Shown in pieces: positions 4,283-13,171 of a DNA stretch of 21,612 nucleotides (the first letter of the stretch is position 1; each line of letters opens with the position of its first letter). The notes beneath the pieces were generated by a model, which did no database searches, was not told the DNA's origin, and saw nothing but the letters and a program-made list of their open reading frames with translations. The stretch is from a virus. A program made the translations under genes and the position numbers. Location of the stretch: positions 1 through 21,612 of the IMG/VR virus record IMGVR_UViG_3300008266_000571. One strand, written 5' to 3'.

Positions 4283-6732
4283 GCGATTTTGATATATCTG
4301 GCCTTCGGGAATCTTTAGGATTTGCGCCACCTAAAGCGCCATCAAAAACGGTTTCCAAATCACCATCAGATTTTGATGCTGATTTAAAAAGAACTGTTAC
4401 GCCTGCTGACCAAGCAATATTGTTAAATAATGAACGCAACAAATTAAACGCTGCTTTGCAAAATGCAGGTTTATCTGTAACAGATCGCGCAAGATTACAA
4501 AAAGATTTAGAAGCATTGGATCGTGAAATTGGGCTGTTGCCAGCCAATGTAAGAAATATGCAGCCTGCAATTGTGGAACCACAAAGCGACTTTATGCTGG
4601 AAGGTTTGCGCGACGCGATGGTAGCGCCATCCACAGAAGTTGAAAAACCGGTTGCAGCATCGGCGGCAGCGCCAGCACCCGTTGTTAAAAAAATGTTTGA
4701 ACCATCACCCGGCAGCGTAGGCAAAAAATTCGAACAAGCGGTCGAATCTATTCCCGGCGTTAAAGAAATCGGTGCTTTTGGCAACGTAGCTGCTGGTCAA
4801 GTATCAAAATCTATTGGCGCTGTACAACAATTAGTCGGGCAATACTTTCCCGGCCTTGATGAATCAACGCGCCAAGCAATTATGAGTAATGCGGAGCGAA
4901 ACATCGGTTTGGCTGAAGCTGCTATGGCACCGGCCAAAAAAGAGTTTCCTAAAACCGCGATTGCTGGCGAGGTGGCTGGATACATTGCCAGCCCAGTTTC
5001 AAAGCTAATTCCCGGCATGGGGCCATCAACATCACTTGTTGGTGCTGGCGCAAAAGGTGGTGTGCAAGGCGGTTTGGCTGGCACGTTAATGGAACCAGTT
5101 ACCGATAAAGAACAGCCATTTTTTACTGAAAAAGCAAAACAAGCAACAACGGGCGCTTTGTTTGGTGCTGGTGGCGGCGCGGTGTTTCAAGGGCTGTCAA
5201 CGGCAGGCGGCAAAACCATTGACACAATTAGGCAAAAATTTGGCGGCTTAGTTCCTGATAATCAATTAAACCAACAAGCTGACGAAGTATTAAAAGCCGC
5301 TGGCATTACGGCAAACAATGTGCCAAAAGAATATTTTAAGGGTTTGCAAGATCAAGCAAAACTTGCGTTGCAGACTGGCGATGTAAAAGGTTTTCAAAAA
5401 TTTGCGCGTAACTTTAGCGAAGCTGACGAATTGGGTATTCCCATGTTGCGTGGTCAATTAACTCGCGACCCAATGCAATATGCAGTAGAACAAAACATTG
5501 CAGGAATTAAAGGCGTTGGCGAACCTATTCAAACGGTTATGGCTGCACAAGTTCGTGCCATGCTTCAACGATTAGATGATTTTGGTGCGGCTAAAGGCAC
5601 TTCAATTACTAATAGTGGATTTACGTTAAACAATGCATTAAATCAAGCTGACGAGATTGCATCTCAACGTGTTCGCGATGCTTATGCGGCATATCGTCAA
5701 TCAACTGGACGTAACATAGACGTACCGTTGACAGGATTAGCACAAGATTATGCGCGAGTATTAAAAGATTATGGGAAAGAAAATATACCAAGCGGCGTAA
5801 GAAATAATTTAAATGAATTAGGTTTATTAAGCGGCAAGCAATTAAAAGTCACGACTATTGATGATGCTGAAAGATTAATTAAAGTAATTAATCAAGTATA
5901 TGATCCAAGCAAACAAACTAAAGGCACTTTAAATGCTTTAGATGAATTACGTCGGTCATTAAATAATTCAATCAATCAAGCAGGTGCTAATTTACCCGGT
6001 CAAGCTGGAGCCGCAGCGCGTGAAGCTAGAAAAGCCGCGCAAGAACGATTTCAAACTATTGAAAGCATTCCAGCATTACGCGATGTAATACGAGGCAAAG
6101 AACCTGACAAGTTTGTGCAAAATCATATTTTGCAAGGCAACGTCAATCAAATTTCCAAGATGCGGGATTACCTGCAAACTAATAATCCTGAAGCGTTGGC
6201 GCAAGTGCAAAGCGATATTATTAAGCACATTAAAAATCGCGTAACTGGAAACATTAGCGATGAAAATGCCAAGTTTAGCCAAGCTGGATTAAAAGAATTT
6301 TTATCTGGCCCAATGGGTGACAGGGTAAAAAACTTTCTCACTCCGGAACAATTCAACAATCTAAACAAGCTAAATCGCGTTGCAGAAAACGCATTTGTTG
6401 AGCCTGTTGGTGCAAGAGTGAACCGAAGCAACACGGCATCGGCGGCTGCAAATTTGGTTAAAAGCACCGTTCAAACTGGCGAAATTAATAATTTGCTTTC
6501 GTCAATTGCTGGCTTGCAATGGCCGCTAGTTACAGGTGCGGCACGGTATGCGCAAGAAAGAATTCAAGGCGCAAAAGCGCGGGGTATGCTGCGCGAAGCA
6601 TTAGAACCTACACAACCACGCGCACCGCAAACAACGATACCATTATCGCAAATCGTTAAACCCGGTGTTGCTGGTGCTGGTGCTGGTCGTGGTTACGTTG
6701 AACAAAGAAATCTTGAAATGGAGAATCGGTAA
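4279..6732 (+). CDS. Large internal virion / DNA ejection protein candidate, 817 aa
   Basis: No family is recognised with confidence. ATGA overlap with the preceding gene means coupled translation. The N-terminus (about 1-120) is charged and partly coiled. Residues about 140-310 are Gly/Ala-rich with small hydrophobic segments (GVKEIGAFGNVAAGQVSKSIG; GAGAKGGVQGGLAGTLMEP; GALFGAGGGAVFQGLSTAGG), as in membrane-inserting ejection proteins such as P22 gp16. The remaining 500 residues look all-helical with many Asn/Gln/Lys (LNALDELRRSLNNSINQAG). The tail ends with a Gly/Ala stretch and YVEQRNLEMENR. Long size, last place before lysis genes and the glycine-alanine segments all fit an internal protein delivered with the genome. 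No transglycosylase motif was seen. Codon use is A+T-rich as in its neighbour. Confidence 0.6.
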   Translation: MSDFDISGLRESLGFAPPKAPSKTVSKSPSDFDADLKRTVTPADQAILLNNERNKLNAALQNAGLSVTDRARLQKDLEALDREIGLLPANVRNMQPAIVEPQSDFMLEGLRDAMVAPSTEVEKPVAASAAAPAPVVKKMFEPSPGSVGKKFEQAVESIPGVKEIGAFGNVAAGQVSKSIGAVQQLVGQYFPGLDESTRQAIMSNAERNIGLAEAAMAPAKKEFPKTAIAGEVAGYIASPVSKLIPGMGPSTSLVGAGAKGGVQGGLAGTLMEPVTDKEQPFFTEKAKQATTGALFGAGGGAVFQGLSTAGGKTIDTIRQKFGGLVPDNQLNQQADEVLKAAGITANNVPKEYFKGLQDQAKLALQTGDVKGFQKFARNFSEADELGIPMLRGQLTRDPMQYAVEQNIAGIKGVGEPIQTVMAAQVRAMLQRLDDFGAAKGTSITNSGFTLNNALNQADEIASQRVRDAYAAYRQSTGRNIDVPLTGLAQDYARVLKDYGKENIPSGVRNNLNELGLLSGKQLKVTTIDDAERLIKVINQVYDPSKQTKGTLNALDELRRSLNNSINQAGANLPGQAGAAAREARKAAQERFQTIESIPALRDVIRGKEPDKFVQNHILQGNVNQISKMRDYLQTNNPEALAQVQSDIIKHIKNRVTGNISDENAKFSQAGLKEFLSGPMGDRVKNFLTPEQFNNLNKLNRVAENAFVEPVGARVNRSNTASAAANLVKSTVQTGEINNLLSSIAGLQWPLVTGAARYAQERIQGAKARGMLREALEPTQPRAPQTTIPLSQIVKPGVAGAGAGRGYVEQRNLEMENR

Positions 6733-8052: not shown

Positions 8053-8679
8053 TTATTCTCCAATAATTTTGCGTAGCGCTTCAACTTTGGCATCGACTTC
8101 TGCCAAAAACTTTTTCACTTCAACTTCGGTGGCTTTGATCCATTGGTCATCGCGCATGACCCGGTGAACGAACAACTGCGCTTTGGCAGGCATCCGTGGG
8201 TCGAACACAACGTAGTCGCACCATATCCTGCCAGCGCAGGCCATTTGCCATTGCATTTGGGCGAAATATTTGGACTCCACCGGATCAGCGGCCAGCCAGC
8301 ATTCCAGCGCGGTCTTAGAGCTGGGGCATTTAATCTCGACCATGCCATCGTTGCCCACTAGCCCGTCAGGACTAGCACCAGACATTTCGATGGTCGGGTG
8401 CTGTAAGAAACCCACCTCATCCACCAAAACGCTTCTGGCGGCTTCGTATGCAGCCCGTGCGAAGGGTTCCTGATCAATACCCCATTGCATTTCGAAGTTG
8501 GTGTATCCATCCGCTTTGGTGCCGGTGACACGTTCCAGTACAAGCTGGGTCATGTAGTTCGCACGGTCAGCGCCATATCCGGTTTTGGTCTTGGCTAAGA
8601 CTTTGTGCAAGCTGCTGGCGGTCGCTTTGCCCAGCCGAATAGCAAACCAATCTTCTGTGCGTTGATCTAAATTATTCAT
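8053..8679 (-). CDS. Lambda-Exo / YqaJ-type 5'-3' exonuclease
   Basis: A 208-residue nuclease of the PD-(D/E)XK fold. Visible motifs are QRTEDWFAIRLGKATAS near the N-terminus (helical entry with Arg15), WGIDQEPFARAAYE with E71, the core motif GASPDG with D105 followed by VEIKCPSS with E115 and K117, and a later helix YFAQMQWQMACAGRIWC. This is the signature of lambda exonuclease and YqaJ viral recombinases, which digest one strand of duplex DNA and leave a 3' single strand for the annealing protein. The ERF gene lies two genes upstream. The start overlaps the previous stop (TAATG on this strand). Length fits the family (about 200-226). Confidence 0.9.
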   Translation of the reverse strand: MNNLDQRTEDWFAIRLGKATASSLHKVLAKTKTGYGADRANYMTQLVLERVTGTKADGYTNFEMQWGIDQEPFARAAYEAARSVLVDEVGFLQHPTIEMSGASPDGLVGNDGMVEIKCPSSKTALECWLAADPVESKYFAQMQWQMACAGRIWCDYVVFDPRMPAKAQLFVHRVMRDDQWIKATEVEVKKFLAEVDAKVEALRKIIGE

Positions 8680-8894
8680 TAATAATCGTCCTCATCTTTG
8701 CCTGCGGTTTCAACGTCCAATTCGCCGCCAAAAATCAAAGCAATTTCATCAAATTCCACTTTGTTGTCGCGCAAGATTTTCAAAATTTCATTGCATCGAT
8801 CTGCCAGCGGCGCAATTTGTTCCCACAACTCGCGGCCTTTTTCGACCGTTTCGTTGTATTCTTTTTCGAGGGCTTTAATTTCATGGTTTTTCAT
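8679..8894 (-). CDS. Small coiled-coil protein of unknown function, 71 aa
   Basis: The frame extends to 8924, but ATG 8894 is preferred because it follows an AAAGGA box by eight bases. Translation then gives MKNHEIKALEKEYNETVEKG. The protein is a charged helix (about 1-45) followed by an acidic C-terminus (ETAGKDEDDY). It sits between the ERF and exonuclease genes and overlaps ERF by 14 bases at its start. No family is recognised. A role as a partner or modulator of the recombination proteins is only suggested by position. Confidence 0.7.
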   Translation of the reverse strand: MKNHEIKALEKEYNETVEKGRELWEQIAPLADRCNEILKILRDNKVEFDEIALIFGGELDVETAGKDEDDY

Positions 8895-9498
8895 TTTCTT
8901 TTTCCTTTCTAACGCGATCAACACGGGCTTTCTTTGCTGCGATTACTTGCGCCAATAAATGCTGGTTATTGCCGCAAGCCTCGACTGCTGCTTTAAAAAC
9001 TGTCGCCAGTTCGTCGCTGCTGGCGGTTGCCTCGATAGCTGATAAGTGGTCGGTAATGTCCACCACCGCTACTGAATGAGTGCTGGAATCGGCATCATTA
9101 TCGGCTTCGGTTGGGATGCTGAACGCTTGAAAGCAGGCGTATTTATAAGCCGCCGACATAGCCTTGTTGGTGGCTTTGTCGCCGCTATCCATAGCTTCGC
9201 CAAAAGTCTTGACAATATGCTTGGAGCCGTCTTCAGCGGCCACAAAGTCAAATTCAACTTCAACTGTGACATAAAACAAAGCGCCACCTTTTTGGCTGAC
9301 ACGTTCAGTTACTTCGCGGCTGAGAACGCGCGGCAAGATGCACAAACCATGCTTTGCCAATAGCGGGGCGATGGTGTTGTAAACATCGTCGATGCCGCGA
9401 AAGTTATAGCCGGAACCCTGCTGGTTGCGCCGGTCTTTAGTAATGCCGACGGTGGCTAAATCGGCTTGTACTGCGTTGATCGCTTTGTAAACATTCAT
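8881..9498 (-). CDS. ERF-family single-strand annealing protein
   Basis: With ATG 9498 the product has 205 residues and begins MNVYKAINAVQADLATVGI, the usual ERF start. A GAGGA box lies eight bases upstream. A longer in-frame start (ATG 9558 or 9555, or 9573) has no such box but lies two bases past the stop of a small upstream gene, so it cannot be excluded. Family blocks are GYNFRGIDDVYNTIAPLLAKHGL and GEAMDSGDKATNKAMSAAYK followed by YACFQAFSIPTE. The C-terminal part is a helical, lysine-rich tail. P22 Erf anneals complementary single strands and circularises terminally redundant genomes. With the exonuclease it forms a Red-like pair. Confidence 0.9.
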   Translation of the reverse strand: MNVYKAINAVQADLATVGITKDRRNQQGSGYNFRGIDDVYNTIAPLLAKHGLCILPRVLSREVTERVSQKGGALFYVTVEVEFDFVAAEDGSKHIVKTFGEAMDSGDKATNKAMSAAYKYACFQAFSIPTEADNDADSSTHSVAVVDITDHLSAIEATASSDELATVFKAAVEACGNNQHLLAQVIAAKKARVDRVRKEKENEKP

Positions 9499-9560
9499 TA
9501 TGGTTTCCTCGAATTCTTGTTGTCGTTGGACTGTTTCGTAATAAGCCTGATCCATCATGG

Positions 9561-9707
9561 TTATTTGCTGCAATTAAACTTGCAAGGCAAAATTGGTTTC
9601 TCGATGCCAAGTTGCTGCTGTGCGCTTGGCGTTTCACTTGGCGATGTTTTAGAAAACCCGACGATAACAATTAAAGAAATCCAAGCTGCTGGTTTTATAT
9701 ATTTCAT
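9561..9707 (-). CDS. Small exported or membrane-anchored peptide, 48 aa
   Basis: ATG 9707 is preceded by an AAAGGC box at five to six bases. The product begins MKYIKPAAWISLIVIVGFSK, a positively charged start plus a hydrophobic core like a signal peptide or single membrane anchor. A Ser/Thr/Pro/Gln-rich stretch follows, and the C-terminus has two cysteines (PCKFNC). There is no clear lipobox. The gene fills the gap between the 32-residue gene and ERF in the same direction. Function is unknown. Called from start signal, position and composition only. Confidence 0.45.
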   Translation of the reverse strand: MKYIKPAAWISLIVIVGFSKTSPSETPSAQQQLGIEKPILPCKFNCSK

Positions 9708-10234: not shown

Positions 10235-10269
10235 AAGTTGCTCCTGTTAAAGACCGCGATGTAGCGGCA

Positions 10270-10305
10270 TGGACAGATATTAAGCCACCTTTACACCTAT
10301 GTCAA
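10270..10305 (-). promoter_or_regulatory. Leftward sigma70-type promoter 2 (near-consensus)
   Basis: On the minus strand the -35 box is TTGACA (10305-10300), identical to consensus, and the -10 box is TAATAT (10282-10277), five of six. The spacer is exactly 17 bases and holds the operator-like sequence O-b. The predicted start is near 10270, giving a leader of about 35 bases before ATG 10234. It is back to back with the cro promoter. Confidence 0.8.
10280..10294 (-). promoter_or_regulatory. Operator-like site O-b
   Basis: The minus strand reads GTAAAGGTGGCTTAA, covering the spacer and the edge of the -10 of leftward promoter 2. It is a 22-base-shifted copy of O-c, so both lie on the same face of the helix. 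Called by repetition; no protein binding is shown. Confidence 0.5.
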
Positions 10306-10316
10306 GCCACCTTTGC
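10302..10316 (-). promoter_or_regulatory. Operator-like site O-c
   Basis: The minus strand reads GCAAAGGTGGCTTGA. It matches O-b at 13 of 15 positions, and the two form a direct repeat of AAGCCACCTTT on the plus strand. It overlaps both the -35 of leftward promoter 2 and the -35 of the rightward cro promoter. Occupancy would affect both directions. Confidence 0.5.
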
Positions 10317-10348
10317 AAAATAATTTAATCTGGCTTACAATCCGCGCA
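10313..10348 (+). promoter_or_regulatory. Rightward cro promoter, predicted start on the ATG
   Basis: A -35 box TTGCAA (10313-10318) and a -10 box TACAAT (10336-10341) are 17 bases apart. Seven bases after the -10 lies the A of ATG 10348, so the transcript is predicted to be leaderless. No ribosome-binding site precedes that ATG. A further operator-like copy (GTAAGCCAGATTAAA on the minus strand, 10324-10338, weaker) lies in the spacer and -10. Confidence 0.65.
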
Positions 10349-10506
10349 TGGACACTAAAACCGCGATTTCCCTAGCTGGCAGCGCAACAGAGCTTGCCAA
10401 ATTGCTAGGTGTTACCAGACAAGCAATTGGCCAATGGGGTGAGAACTTGCCGCAACAGCGTGTTTGGCAGCTACAGGTATTGCGCCCCAAATGGTTTAAG
10501 AGCTAA
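10348..10506 (+). CDS. cro: Cro-like DNA-binding regulator, 52 aa
   Basis: A 52-residue protein, too short for many gene finders. It contains one helix-turn-helix: ATELAKLLGVTRQAIGQWGE (about residues 13-32), with the second (recognition) helix at VTRQAIGQW. The C-terminal LPQQRVWQLQVLRPKWFK fits small Cro proteins of P22/434 type. It is the first gene of the rightward operon and sits by the divergent operator repeats, as expected for Cro. No Shine-Dalgarno sequence precedes the ATG; the promoter places the transcript start at the start codon. A lambda-type CI partner is not found in the window. The gene symbol is by analogy. Confidence 0.8.
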   Translation: MDTKTAISLAGSATELAKLLGVTRQAIGQWGENLPQQRVWQLQVLRPKWFKS

Positions 10507-10525
10507 AATTTGCGAAACCCGGCTA

Positions 10526-10547
10526 GGTAGAGATTGGCCTCTCTGCC
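10526..10547 (+). other. Hairpin in the cro to replication-gene leader
   Basis: GGTAGAGA (10526-10533) pairs with TCTCTGCC (10540-10547) with one G-U pair around a six-base loop. No U-run follows, so it is not an intrinsic terminator. It lies between the cro stop and the next start, where lambdoid phages keep nut-like or processing sites. No boxA was recognised. Function unknown. Confidence 0.35.
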
Positions 10548-10604
10548 GAAAAGCGAACTCCCCGCCTGCCGTTGGTTTCACTTTGGGAGCGATGCGGAGA
10601 TGCA

Positions 10605-11321
10605 ATGCACTACTACCAACACCACATTGGTGACTTCATTCGAGCCACCGCGCGTTTGACTGATGCTCAAACGATGGCTTATTTGCGCTTAATTTGGATG
10701 TATTACGAAAGTGAAAAGCCACTTAAGCCAGATTCCAAAATACTATCTTTCCAAATTGGCACAGATTTAGAAACGACTGAATTGTTGCTGGAGTCGTTTT
10801 TTATCCTTTGTGACGACGGTTGGCATCACGCTCGATGTGATCGAGAAATTGCAGAATATCGAACGTTTCGCGGCAAAAAATCTAAAGCTGGTAAAGCATC
10901 TGCTGAACAACGGAAGAACAGCCGTTCAACACCTGATGAACACCTGTTGAACGAGTGTTCAACGGACGTTCAACTAACCAATAACCAAGAACCAATAACC
11001 AATAACCATAAACCAAAGGTAGAGAGGCAGCGCGGATCGCGCTTGCCTGCTGACTGGCAACCCAGCGATGAAGATGTAGCCTATTGCCAAAAGGAAAGAC
11101 CTGATCTGCAATGGCAGCGGGTCGCCGAGAATTTCCGCGACTACTGGCTGGCGCAGGCCGGAACTAAAGCCACCAAGCTGAACTGGGCGCTAGTCTGGAA
11201 AACTTGGGTGCGAAACGAAAAGGGCGCGAGAACGTTTGAAAGCACACGGGACGCTGAACGCAGAAAAGTTATTGAACAAGTGATGGGGGTGAAAAATGAC
11301 CGAATTATCGACATCAACTAA
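10605..11321 (+). CDS. DUF1376 (YdaU-like) replication initiation protein, O-like
   Basis: The frame is open from 10572, but ATG 10605 is chosen: a GGAG box ends five bases upstream and translation begins MHYYQHHIGDFIRATARLTD, the typical DUF1376 start. Residues about 1-95 form this winged-helix-like domain (LRLIWMYYESEKPL, FQIGTDLETTELLLESFF). A low-complexity linker (about 100-145, with NNQEPITNNHKPK) follows. The C-terminal domain (about 165-205) has VAENFRDYWLAQAGTKATK and LNWALVWKTWVRNE, resembling the DnaT/phage replisome organiser end. It probably binds the origin and recruits the loader encoded next. The linker region carries 11-bp-phased repeats that are likely the origin itself. The last 26 bases overlap the P-like gene. 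Confidence 0.8.
   Translation: MHYYQHHIGDFIRATARLTDAQTMAYLRLIWMYYESEKPLKPDSKILSFQIGTDLETTELLLESFFILCDDGWHHARCDREIAEYRTFRGKKSKAGKASAEQRKNSRSTPDEHLLNECSTDVQLTNNQEPITNNHKPKVERQRGSRLPADWQPSDEDVAYCQKERPDLQWQRVAENFRDYWLAQAGTKATKLNWALVWKTWVRNEKGARTFESTRDAERRKVIEQVMGVKNDRIIDIN
10924..11017 (+). other. Candidate origin of replication: phased iterons plus A-rich repeat tract
   Basis: Five heptamers lie exactly 11 bases apart: GTTCAAC at 10924, GATGAAC at 10935, GTTGAAC at 10946, GTTCAAC at 10957 and GTTCAAC at 10968. Since 11 is not a multiple of three, the repeat is held at DNA level and not as a protein repeat. It is followed by an A-rich, G-poor tract (10977-11017) with two copies of ACCAATAACC and further AATAACC and ATAAACC copies. 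Iterons plus an easily melted tract inside an O-like gene is the lambda ori plan. Inferred by pattern. Confidence 0.65.
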
Positions 11322-11979
11322 GCCAGTCACGCAGGGCTGGATCGACGCGCTATTTGTGAAAATGCTTAACACCTTTGGCAGCAGGTTTGCCGATATGTGG
11401 CGCGGTACGGACATTGATTCAGTTAAAGCAACATGGGCACCAGAGCTGTCGAAACTTAGCCGGGAAGAATTCGCAAAAGGCGTTCAGGCTTTGGCAACAT
11501 TGAACTGGCCGCCTACGCTCGGTGAATTCATCAACCTGTGCCGCCCAAAGCTAGACGCTCAAAAAGCCTTCACAGAGGCCATAAACGGGCTTCTGGCGCG
11601 AGATCGGGGCGAGGTTGGGGTATGGAGCCATCCCGCGATATTTTGGGCTGCTGTGCGCGTTGGTTCGTTTGATATGAAAAACTCAACTTACCCGCAAATC
11701 AAGGGTCGATGGGAAGGCGCACTCGGCGATGAGTTAGAAAAATCGCAATGGCAGGAAATTCCAAAGCCTGTGGTGGCTTTACCTGTGGCAAAAGTTTCTA
11801 AGGAAATTGCAGAAAAATATGTTGCAAAGCTGCAAGCGCTTAATGTAGAGTCAAGCCAGATTGACCACAAGCGCTGGGCAAAGCGAATTATGGAACGGCA
11901 CCAGAGGGGCGATAAAACGCTTTTGCCGGTTCAGGTATCGATGGCTAAGGCAGCGCTAAACGCATCGGAGGCACTTTGA
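11296..11979 (+). CDS. Lambda P-like replication protein (helicase loader)
   Basis: A 227-residue protein with a GGGGGTG box before ATG 11296. Family features: TQGWIDALFVKMLNTFGSRF and WAPELSKLSREEFAKGVQAL (about 13-68), then the hallmark NWPPTLGEFINLCRP (about 69-83). A helical C-terminal half with many Lys and Gln follows (about 150-227), including IDHKRWAKRIMERHQRGDK. Lambda P binds the O protein at the origin and brings host DnaB helicase. Following an O-like gene with an internal iteron array, this role fits well. The 5' end overlaps the O-like gene by 26 bases; the 3' end overlaps the HTH gene by four. Confidence 0.8.
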   Translation: MTELSTSTKPVTQGWIDALFVKMLNTFGSRFADMWRGTDIDSVKATWAPELSKLSREEFAKGVQALATLNWPPTLGEFINLCRPKLDAQKAFTEAINGLLARDRGEVGVWSHPAIFWAAVRVGSFDMKNSTYPQIKGRWEGALGDELEKSQWQEIPKPVVALPVAKVSKEIAEKYVAKLQALNVESSQIDHKRWAKRIMERHQRGDKTLLPVQVSMAKAALNASEAL

Positions 11980-12520: not shown

Positions 12521-12773
12521 TGACATCGTTCAGGCGCTTCGTGCGGTTGGTGCAACGGTTCAATCGTTGGCTGCGGTGGGTTCGGGCGTACCGGATTTGC
12601 TTGTGGGATTCAGGAAACAAACATTTCTGGTCGAGGTCAAAGACGGTCAAGCGTCGCCATCGGCAAAGAAGCTAAACCCAGCGCAGGTGATTTGGCATCA
12701 CAACTGGACGGGTGGGCCATTAGCGGTGGTGGAGTCGGTTGAAGATGCGCTGAAGCTAATCGGGGTTAAATGA
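12486..12773 (+). CDS. Resolvase-like PD-(D/E)XK nuclease (VRR-NUC / Hjc-type)
   Basis: A 95-residue nuclease domain. The core reads GSGVPDLLVGFRKQTFLVEVKDG, with D37, E50 and K52 as the catalytic Asp-Glu-x-Lys. The N-terminal helix (KNHDDIVQALRAVG) and the C-terminal GGPLAVVESVEDALKLIG fit small phage VRR-NUC or Holliday-junction-resolvase-like proteins. It likely cuts branched DNA intermediates of recombination and replication before packaging. Neighbours are NinB and replication genes. The stop overlaps the NinB start by four bases. Confidence 0.82.
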   Translation: MRRAARIDKNHDDIVQALRAVGATVQSLAAVGSGVPDLLVGFRKQTFLVEVKDGQASPSAKKLNPAQVIWHHNWTGGPLAVVESVEDALKLIGVK

Positions 12774-13171
12774 TTTTTGATTTGGAAACCGTACCGCAGG
12801 CAAGAGTTGCGCTGACAACATTGTGGGCTAAATTAAAGCCTGCGCTGGAGGCCGGTAAAGCCTGCCAGCTAGAGGTGCGGCCATTAAAGCGAACGCTGGA
12901 TCAGAATGCTAAGTTTCACGCAATGATCGGCCAGATTGCCGACCAAATGGGCGCAGCAGGGTCGAGCTGGACGGTGGAAGATTGGAAACGGTTATTGATT
13001 GACCAATGGGCCTGTGACACAAACCGTCGCATCGGGTCGGTGGTGCCAAGCCTAGACGGGCAGCGAGTGGTTCAGTTAGGCCTACAAAGTGCAAAATTCA
13101 GCGTTGCTGACGCGACCGAGTTTATTGAATGGCTGGACGCTTGGGCTGCGCAAAAAGGTATTGAGTTTTGA
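12770..13171 (+). CDS. ninB: NinB/Orf-family recombination mediator
   Basis: A 133-residue protein with the NinB layout. An N-terminal strand region ends in VRPLKRTLDQNAKFHAMIGQ (about residues 37-56), whose 'R(S/T)LDQNxK' block is characteristic. Then come WTVEDWKRLLIDQW, a SVVPSLDGQRVVQLGLQSAK strand pair and a C-terminal helix FIEWLDAWAAQKGIEF. Lambda NinB (Orf) binds single-stranded DNA with SSB and acts in Red and RecF-type recombination. Here it would assist the ERF/exonuclease pair encoded leftward. Placement next to a resolvase-like gene resembles the nin region. Confidence 0.85.
   Translation: MIFDLETVPQARVALTTLWAKLKPALEAGKACQLEVRPLKRTLDQNAKFHAMIGQIADQMGAAGSSWTVEDWKRLLIDQWACDTNRRIGSVVPSLDGQRVVQLGLQSAKFSVADATEFIEWLDAWAAQKGIEF

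Follow-up and report, generated by a model that had tools for sequence, protein, structure and literature searches.

In lambdoid phages, the N-terminal domain of the initiator and its iterons form a type-specific unit. In the Gram-positive phages A118, SPP1 and TP901-1, whose initiators are replisome organizers or DnaD-like proteins, the origin is found inside the initiator gene. The iterons of the plasmids RK2, P1, R6K and pSC101 are about 17-22 bp long and lie outside the rep gene. Lambdoid origins place their iterons and an AT-rich tract in the middle of the gene, and extra iterons lengthen the O protein; lambda has four iterons of 18-19 bp, which are imperfect inverted repeats 20-24 bp apart (PMC7466680). 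The origins of the four plasmids named above combine helix-phased direct repeats and winged-helix initiators with an adjoining AT-rich element (PMC5043065), and plasmid Rep proteins are reported to make sequence-specific contacts with the single strand of the unwinding element once it has opened (PMC4081077). The Rac prophage carries an active, normally repressed origin, oriJ (PMC3945230).

Here, we focus on a viral locus that shares the layout of oriLambda. The window is the whole stretch of DNA that was analysed, one strand of 21,612 nucleotides (positions 1-21,612 of IMG/VR record IMGVR_UViG_3300008266_000571). It contains a gene of the DUF1376 family, which is listed in Pfam as a protein of unknown function, and two adjoining repeat arrays within that gene. 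Across its relatives, such arrays are conserved at the DNA level, specific to the family and fixed in their order, and the iterons co-segregate with the N-terminal domain. We consider it very likely that a lambda-type origin lies in the linker-coding part of the gene, with both the binding of the protein and the replication starts being inferred. The initial annotation had proposed such an origin as a candidate, and this is now supported by DNA-level arrays and by the oriLambda layout, in the absence of binding or replication data. Four properties were required of a lambda-type origin: iterons kept at the DNA level within the coding sequence of an initiator, an easily melted tract beside them, a helicase-loader gene directly downstream, and type specificity, meaning that the DNA-binding domain and the iterons are exchanged together.

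The DUF1376 gene and its two arrays

The features of the locus are listed below by their coordinates in the window.

10605-11321, plus strand: DUF1376 gene of the putative initiator, 238 amino acids and stop (PF07120, E=1.7e-21; PHROGs; AlphaFold models)
10608-10853, plus strand: DUF1376 domain, predicted winged-helix-like and DNA-binding (Pfam stretch; pLDDT mostly 94-98)
10631-10976, plus strand: cassette exchanged between relatives, comprising N-domain, box and iterons (window against relative L036, DNA alignment)
10875-10919, plus strand: basic peptide box KKSKAGKASAEQRKN at the end of a long helix; box type correlates with iteron type
10902-10923, no strand assigned: two weak in-phase units, GCTGAAC (10902) and GAAGAAC (10913), from a repeat search, spacing 11
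10924-10974, no strand assigned: five strong heptamers at 11-bp pitch, GTTCAAC, GATGAAC, GTTGAAC, GTTCAAC and GTTCAAC, called iterons here without binding data
10975-11016, plus strand: six 7-bp units TAACCAA, candidate DNA unwinding element (TRF), G-free save one base
11040-11216, plus strand: C-terminal domain of the putative initiator, weak DnaT-like match (Pfam DnaT, E=0.14, below the family cut-off)
11296-11979, plus strand: P-like helicase loader, overlapping the DUF1376 gene (PHROG 109, E=5.8e-16; Pfam Phage_lambda_P, E=0.012, below the cut-off)

The gene begins with an in-frame ATG at 10605 and ends at 11321. Membership of its product in DUF1376 is well supported, at 76.8 bits against a curated cut-off of 30.1, and PHROGs labels it a 'primosomal protein' or 'replication initiation protein'. 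AlphaFold predicts a confident winged-helix-like domain, followed by a long helix ending at the box, a disordered linker and a C-terminal domain. Viral fold matches of the N-domain were to DUF1376 and Lin1244-like proteins and, weakly, to 'replisome organizer' proteins. The likeness to the A118, SPP1 and TP901-1 systems is thus a weak one of fold, with no Pfam sequence match and different iterons. Foldseek against the PDB returned only winged-helix matches, all non-significant, and neither sequence nor fold searches of the PDB revealed a convincing relative; a PDB sequence match to LTV1 (E=0.002) was judged to be a chance similarity of helical sequence. The product has no match to Phage_rep_O (PF04492) up to E=1, matching only DUF1376 and, weakly, DnaT; lambda O itself matches PF04492 at E=5.7e-36. 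The 'O-like' label first given to the protein therefore holds for the layout and not for the family.

As required, the helicase-loader gene (PHROG 109) lies directly downstream. The NinB gene is found further on at 12770-13171, and the recombination genes ERF (8881-9573) and YqaJ (8053-8679) lie upstream on the minus strand. In relatives, the genes after the DUF1376 gene encode P-like or DnaC-like loaders, DnaB and primases, as well as DNA methyltransferases and unknown proteins. A DNA methyltransferase (C5-cytosine where typed) was seen at or near the DUF1376 gene in L046 (3989-4708), L225 (2271-3101) and L484 (2922-3477). GC skew over the 21.6-kb fragment is confounded by gene orientation and is uninformative for an origin because the fragment contains a strand switch.

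The strong heptamers, GTT(C/G)AAC being a 7-bp near-palindrome, start at 10924, 10935, 10946, 10957 and 10968, exactly 11 bp apart as initially reported. The weaker copies at 10902 and 10913 extend the phase to seven units spanning 10902-10974. Within the window, the pattern GWTSAAC-N4-GWTSAAC is unique to this array, and it appears in none of 100 dinucleotide shuffles. In its three reading frames GTTSAAC encodes ST, then VQ or VE, then LN or FN; because the 11-bp step runs through all three, the apparently unrepeated linker peptide is the translation of the array. Directly abutting the last heptamer, without a gap, is the A-rich, G-poor repeat tract noted from the outset. It is a real 7-bp array of 42 bp with 31% GC and one G, which shuffles of the sequence do not reproduce. 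The tract is among the weakest 3% of 42-bp windows, meeting the requirement for an easily melted tract, but its weakness is only moderate and is slightly exceeded by one other stretch elsewhere in the gene. In type-A genes, those with GTTSAAC heptamers, AACC starts exactly 1 nt past the last heptamer in 103 of 140 cases. By analogy, the regular 7-bp units on the G-free strand suggest sequence-specific single-strand contacts, for which there are no binding data.

The lambda-like placement recognized in the initial annotation is therefore upheld: iterons and then a G-poor tract lie within the gene of the putative initiator, and the gene of a P-like loader follows. In both oriLambda and the window, iterons and an AT-rich tract sit mid-gene and the loader gene follows. 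However, the oriLambda geometry of 18-19-bp inverted repeats at 20-24 bp is not met in the window, which instead has 7-bp near-palindromes one helical turn (11 bp) apart and a melting tract that contains a conserved 7-bp array. Iteron plasmids share the phased direct repeats, the winged-helix or winged-helix-like initiator and the adjoining AT-rich element, but the repeats in the window are only 7 bp long and lie inside the gene, and a Pfam search of the window found no plasmid Rep domain. The best reading, which rests on sequence comparison, is of an initiator family unrelated in sequence to O that would use one-turn, 7-bp iterons of several recognition types.

In theory, the arrays could also be an operator through which the DUF1376 protein represses or pauses transcription of its own operon while replication starts elsewhere. 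The sites are inferred to lie in an early operon next to regulatory genes, and 7-bp near-palindromes may be taken to resemble small operators. Yet the window has no heptamer copy near a promoter and only one other GTTSAAC, at 6697. Moreover, the sites are mid-gene, phased at 11 bp and, in most genes, abut a G-poor 7-bp array, an arrangement needless for a simple operator. We consider this explanation improbable.

Heptamer types and exchange of the N-domain with its iterons

Not all relatives carry GTTSAAC. L009, L036, L039, L040, L043 and L045 lack it; their heptamers, again with an 11-bp pitch, are GCAWTGC-like (type B). De novo extraction yielded further types, among them ACCCA, CACCCTA, AACGCGT and others. 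The early suggestion that the recognition code might be new is borne out and extended, with several codes travelling with the N-domain.

This can be seen where relatives of different type are compared. The window and L036 match over 10241-10630 (93%), not at all from there to 10976, and again from 10977 (85%), so that the edges of the exchange fall just past the start codon and in the first bases of the 7-bp array. The window (type A) and L009 (type B) have 96.6% DNA identity after the arrays and 53.5% in the N-domain, and their iterons differ; for L003 (A) and L039 (B) the values are 95.3% and 53.5%. The same-type pairs show the opposite, with 80% identity in the N-domain and 92% in the iterons for the window and L003, 81% and 86% for L039 and L009, and diverged C-terminal parts (76-77%) in both pairs. 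Because the identities of mixed-type and same-type pairs switch at the array boundary, the N-domain and iterons move as one cassette, which satisfies the requirement of type specificity and is a likeness to the type-specific unit of lambdoid phages. Such joint exchange would be expected if one binds the other, although no binding data exist. On the N-domain tree, types A and B form clusters, with 12 changes compared to 32.5 for shuffled labels, and at least 6 of the 12 are forced by well-supported branches.

The type is also mirrored in the basic box. Type-A genes have an AG[KR]AS box in 71 of 89 cases and never RW, type-B genes have RW in 41 of 46 and never AG[KR]AS, and a GGR box is found in 17 of 18 ACCCA genes. 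These counts were made after the sequences had been inspected. In phylogenetically independent pairs on well-supported branches, box and type agree in 5 of 5 (p=0.06). With only these five pairs available, and with the box DNA of one lineage itself in phase with the iteron array, we do not claim the box as a proven determinant of specificity; that it might read the heptamer makes it a candidate.

Could the arrays serve primarily as a recombination hot spot, or as a partition or centromere site, for module exchange or segregation? In-phase 11-bp repeats are known from plasmid centromeres, and the exchange junctions between relatives lie at the edge of the 7-bp array. However, an initiator and the sites it uses would be expected to show a link between N-domain and iteron type, whereas a neutral hot spot would not, and shared repeats can readily give rise to exchange as a side effect. 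As for partition, no ParA/ParM-type gene was noticed adjacent to the arrays, the neighbours being replication genes. Such a role is very improbable.

Some type-B genes carry more than one array. In L307, L332 and L348, two GCAWTGC arrays are found about 195-245 bp apart; their coordinates suggest that one is within the part coding for the N-domain and the other in the linker, perhaps as a two-site arrangement. In L302, two type-B arrays (5206 and 5550) are 344 bp apart, each beside a TTGGTT-type (AACCAA) tract, which possibly reflects two initiator genes.

Selection on the linker DNA

Repeats within a coding sequence can be read as DNA or as protein, and the two were separated with a test set of 133 non-redundant DUF1376 genes, for which protein similarity was the sole criterion of choice, with E. 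coli ydaU added. The relatives sampled are biased toward phages near the window. Each linker was recoded synonymously, using the gene's own codon usage and a small pooled-gene weight, and p<=0.01 was taken as the threshold. Blocks beyond this null were found at period 11 in 62 of the 133 genes and at period 7 in 87, with harmonics at period 22 (28 genes) and period 14 (23 genes); every other period from 8 to 25 gave 0-4 genes. The control, 160 other ORFs from the same loci, gave 7 at period 11 and 3 at period 7, and the positive control, lambda O, returned its known iterons at period 23 (p 0.000 with three units and 0.004 with four). As periods 11 and 7 beat the synonymous null and the controls are low, both arrays are under DNA-level selection, and the requirement for iterons kept at the DNA level within the initiator coding sequence is met. 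Codon bias in the linker points toward the repeats as well, with ATA used for 101 of 137 Ile residues, compared to 151 of 698 elsewhere in the gene, and CTA for 67 of 165 Leu residues, compared to 88 of 1248.

The initial annotation had held that the pattern is kept at the DNA level and had asked whether the 11-bp phase persists in relatives while the protein drifts. The phase does persist: across 41 non-redundant genes, type-A heptamers are spaced by multiples of 11 in 82 of 87 intervals. The recoding tests agree with DNA-level maintenance, but close relatives conserve the linker peptide as well. Protein drift alone is therefore undecisive, and the evidence rests on synonymous codon choice and array spacing. 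Among genes taken from bacterial genomes, about half have neither array beyond the synonymous null (35 of 62 do), so either the rule does not hold throughout or the test is underpowered there. That the pattern is a mere by-product of protein selection on the linker peptide STxVQ..LN..STDVQLTNNQEPITNN is scarcely credible despite the good conservation of this peptide in close relatives, since synonymous recoding of the same peptides yields no such periods, codon choice leans toward the repeats and the linker is predicted to be disordered; with the null and controls it is refuted at the family level, while single genes with few repeats could be neutral.

The Rac prophage of E. coli K-12 offers a partial likeness: its ydaU (L402, 7120-7977) is a DUF1376 gene that encodes an AGKAS box and whose linker holds degenerate GTTSAA sites, and Rac has the origin oriJ, with the relative positions of the two unchecked. 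It was rejected as a ready positive case, as its sites are only degenerate and their spacing has decayed, failing the p<=0.01 threshold.

Family-wide distribution and a proposed mechanism

A DNA-only scan of IMG/VR for three GWTSAAC heptamers at 11 bp found at least 120 stretches, where a rough count gives a chance expectation of about one. Among the 120 listed, 80 lie in DUF1376 ORFs, 15-56 amino acids after the domain, bar one extra copy. Of the remaining 40, inspection places about 29 in Lin1244-like (Lin1244_N) or diverged DUF1376 genes, where the heptamers again follow an AGKASAEKRK-like peptide. A second DNA-only scan with (AACCANN)x4 gave 100 DUF1376 members in 110 readable ORFs, and some five of the others appear to be truncated members. 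In the open literature on DUF1376, YdaU, Lin1244 and oriJ, we found no report of arrays or in-gene origins; most subscription journals were not covered, and a prior mention is not excluded. Open-access articles naming DUF1376 make no link to an origin in their titles or abstracts.

Evenly spaced repeats that are kept in hundreds of related viruses beyond the needs of the protein are likely the place where genome copying starts. From the features above, the following steps can be proposed for the origin, with every step from protein binding through melting and helicase loading to the start of synthesis being inferred. DUF1376 subunits would line up along one face of the DNA, probably one per helical turn, and occupy the 5-7 heptamers; the contacts would be made by the winged-helix-like domain and by the basic box that ends the helix after it. 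This nucleoprotein row would strain and open the adjoining 7-bp AACCAAT array, and the initiator or a partner of it may then hold on to the G-free strand of this array. Through its C-terminal domain, the initiator would pass the process on to the P-like loader, which would load the helicase.

A broader proposal is that DUF1376 and Lin1244 proteins are very widespread phage initiators with the origin in their own linker, that the box (AG[KR]ASA.R, SA..RW or GGRPK) specifies the heptamer (GTTSAAC, GCAWTGC or ACCCA, respectively) at a fixed one-turn pitch, and that the universal AACCAAT array is a sequence-specific unwinding element bound as a single strand. We put this forward tentatively, as a hypothesis slightly more likely to fail than to hold. 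Were the box code true, the location and specificity of the origin would be predictable in thousands of uncultured phages. Short of that, the DUF1376 family gains a likely function and a mapped cis-acting site, along with a rule for locating origins by sequence that applies to hundreds of genomes of viruses and prophages. The linker is also a clear-cut example of the same DNA carrying two codes, and with several heptamer types at one pitch and natural swaps between them, initiator-origin recognition becomes directly testable.

Outside DUF1376 itself, Lin1244_N (PF14297) genes in L086, L111, L146 and L163 have the same GTTSAAC array and an AGKASAEKRK-like box. GTTSAAC arrays were also seen in an ORF without an obvious helix-turn-helix domain in L097 (5551) and L192, which may represent another gene family using these repeats. 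In Vibrio phage 1.183.O (L484, 1861-1890), an annotated CRISPR spacer match falls in the linker region of the DUF1376 gene. Clear arrays are found in two cultured phages, Bordetella phage vB_BaM-IFTN2 and Pseudomonas phage MR13. In the latter (L492, gene 1498-2292), the heptamers are CGTGCAC at 11-bp pitch (p=0.003), beside a CTAACCA 7-bp array.
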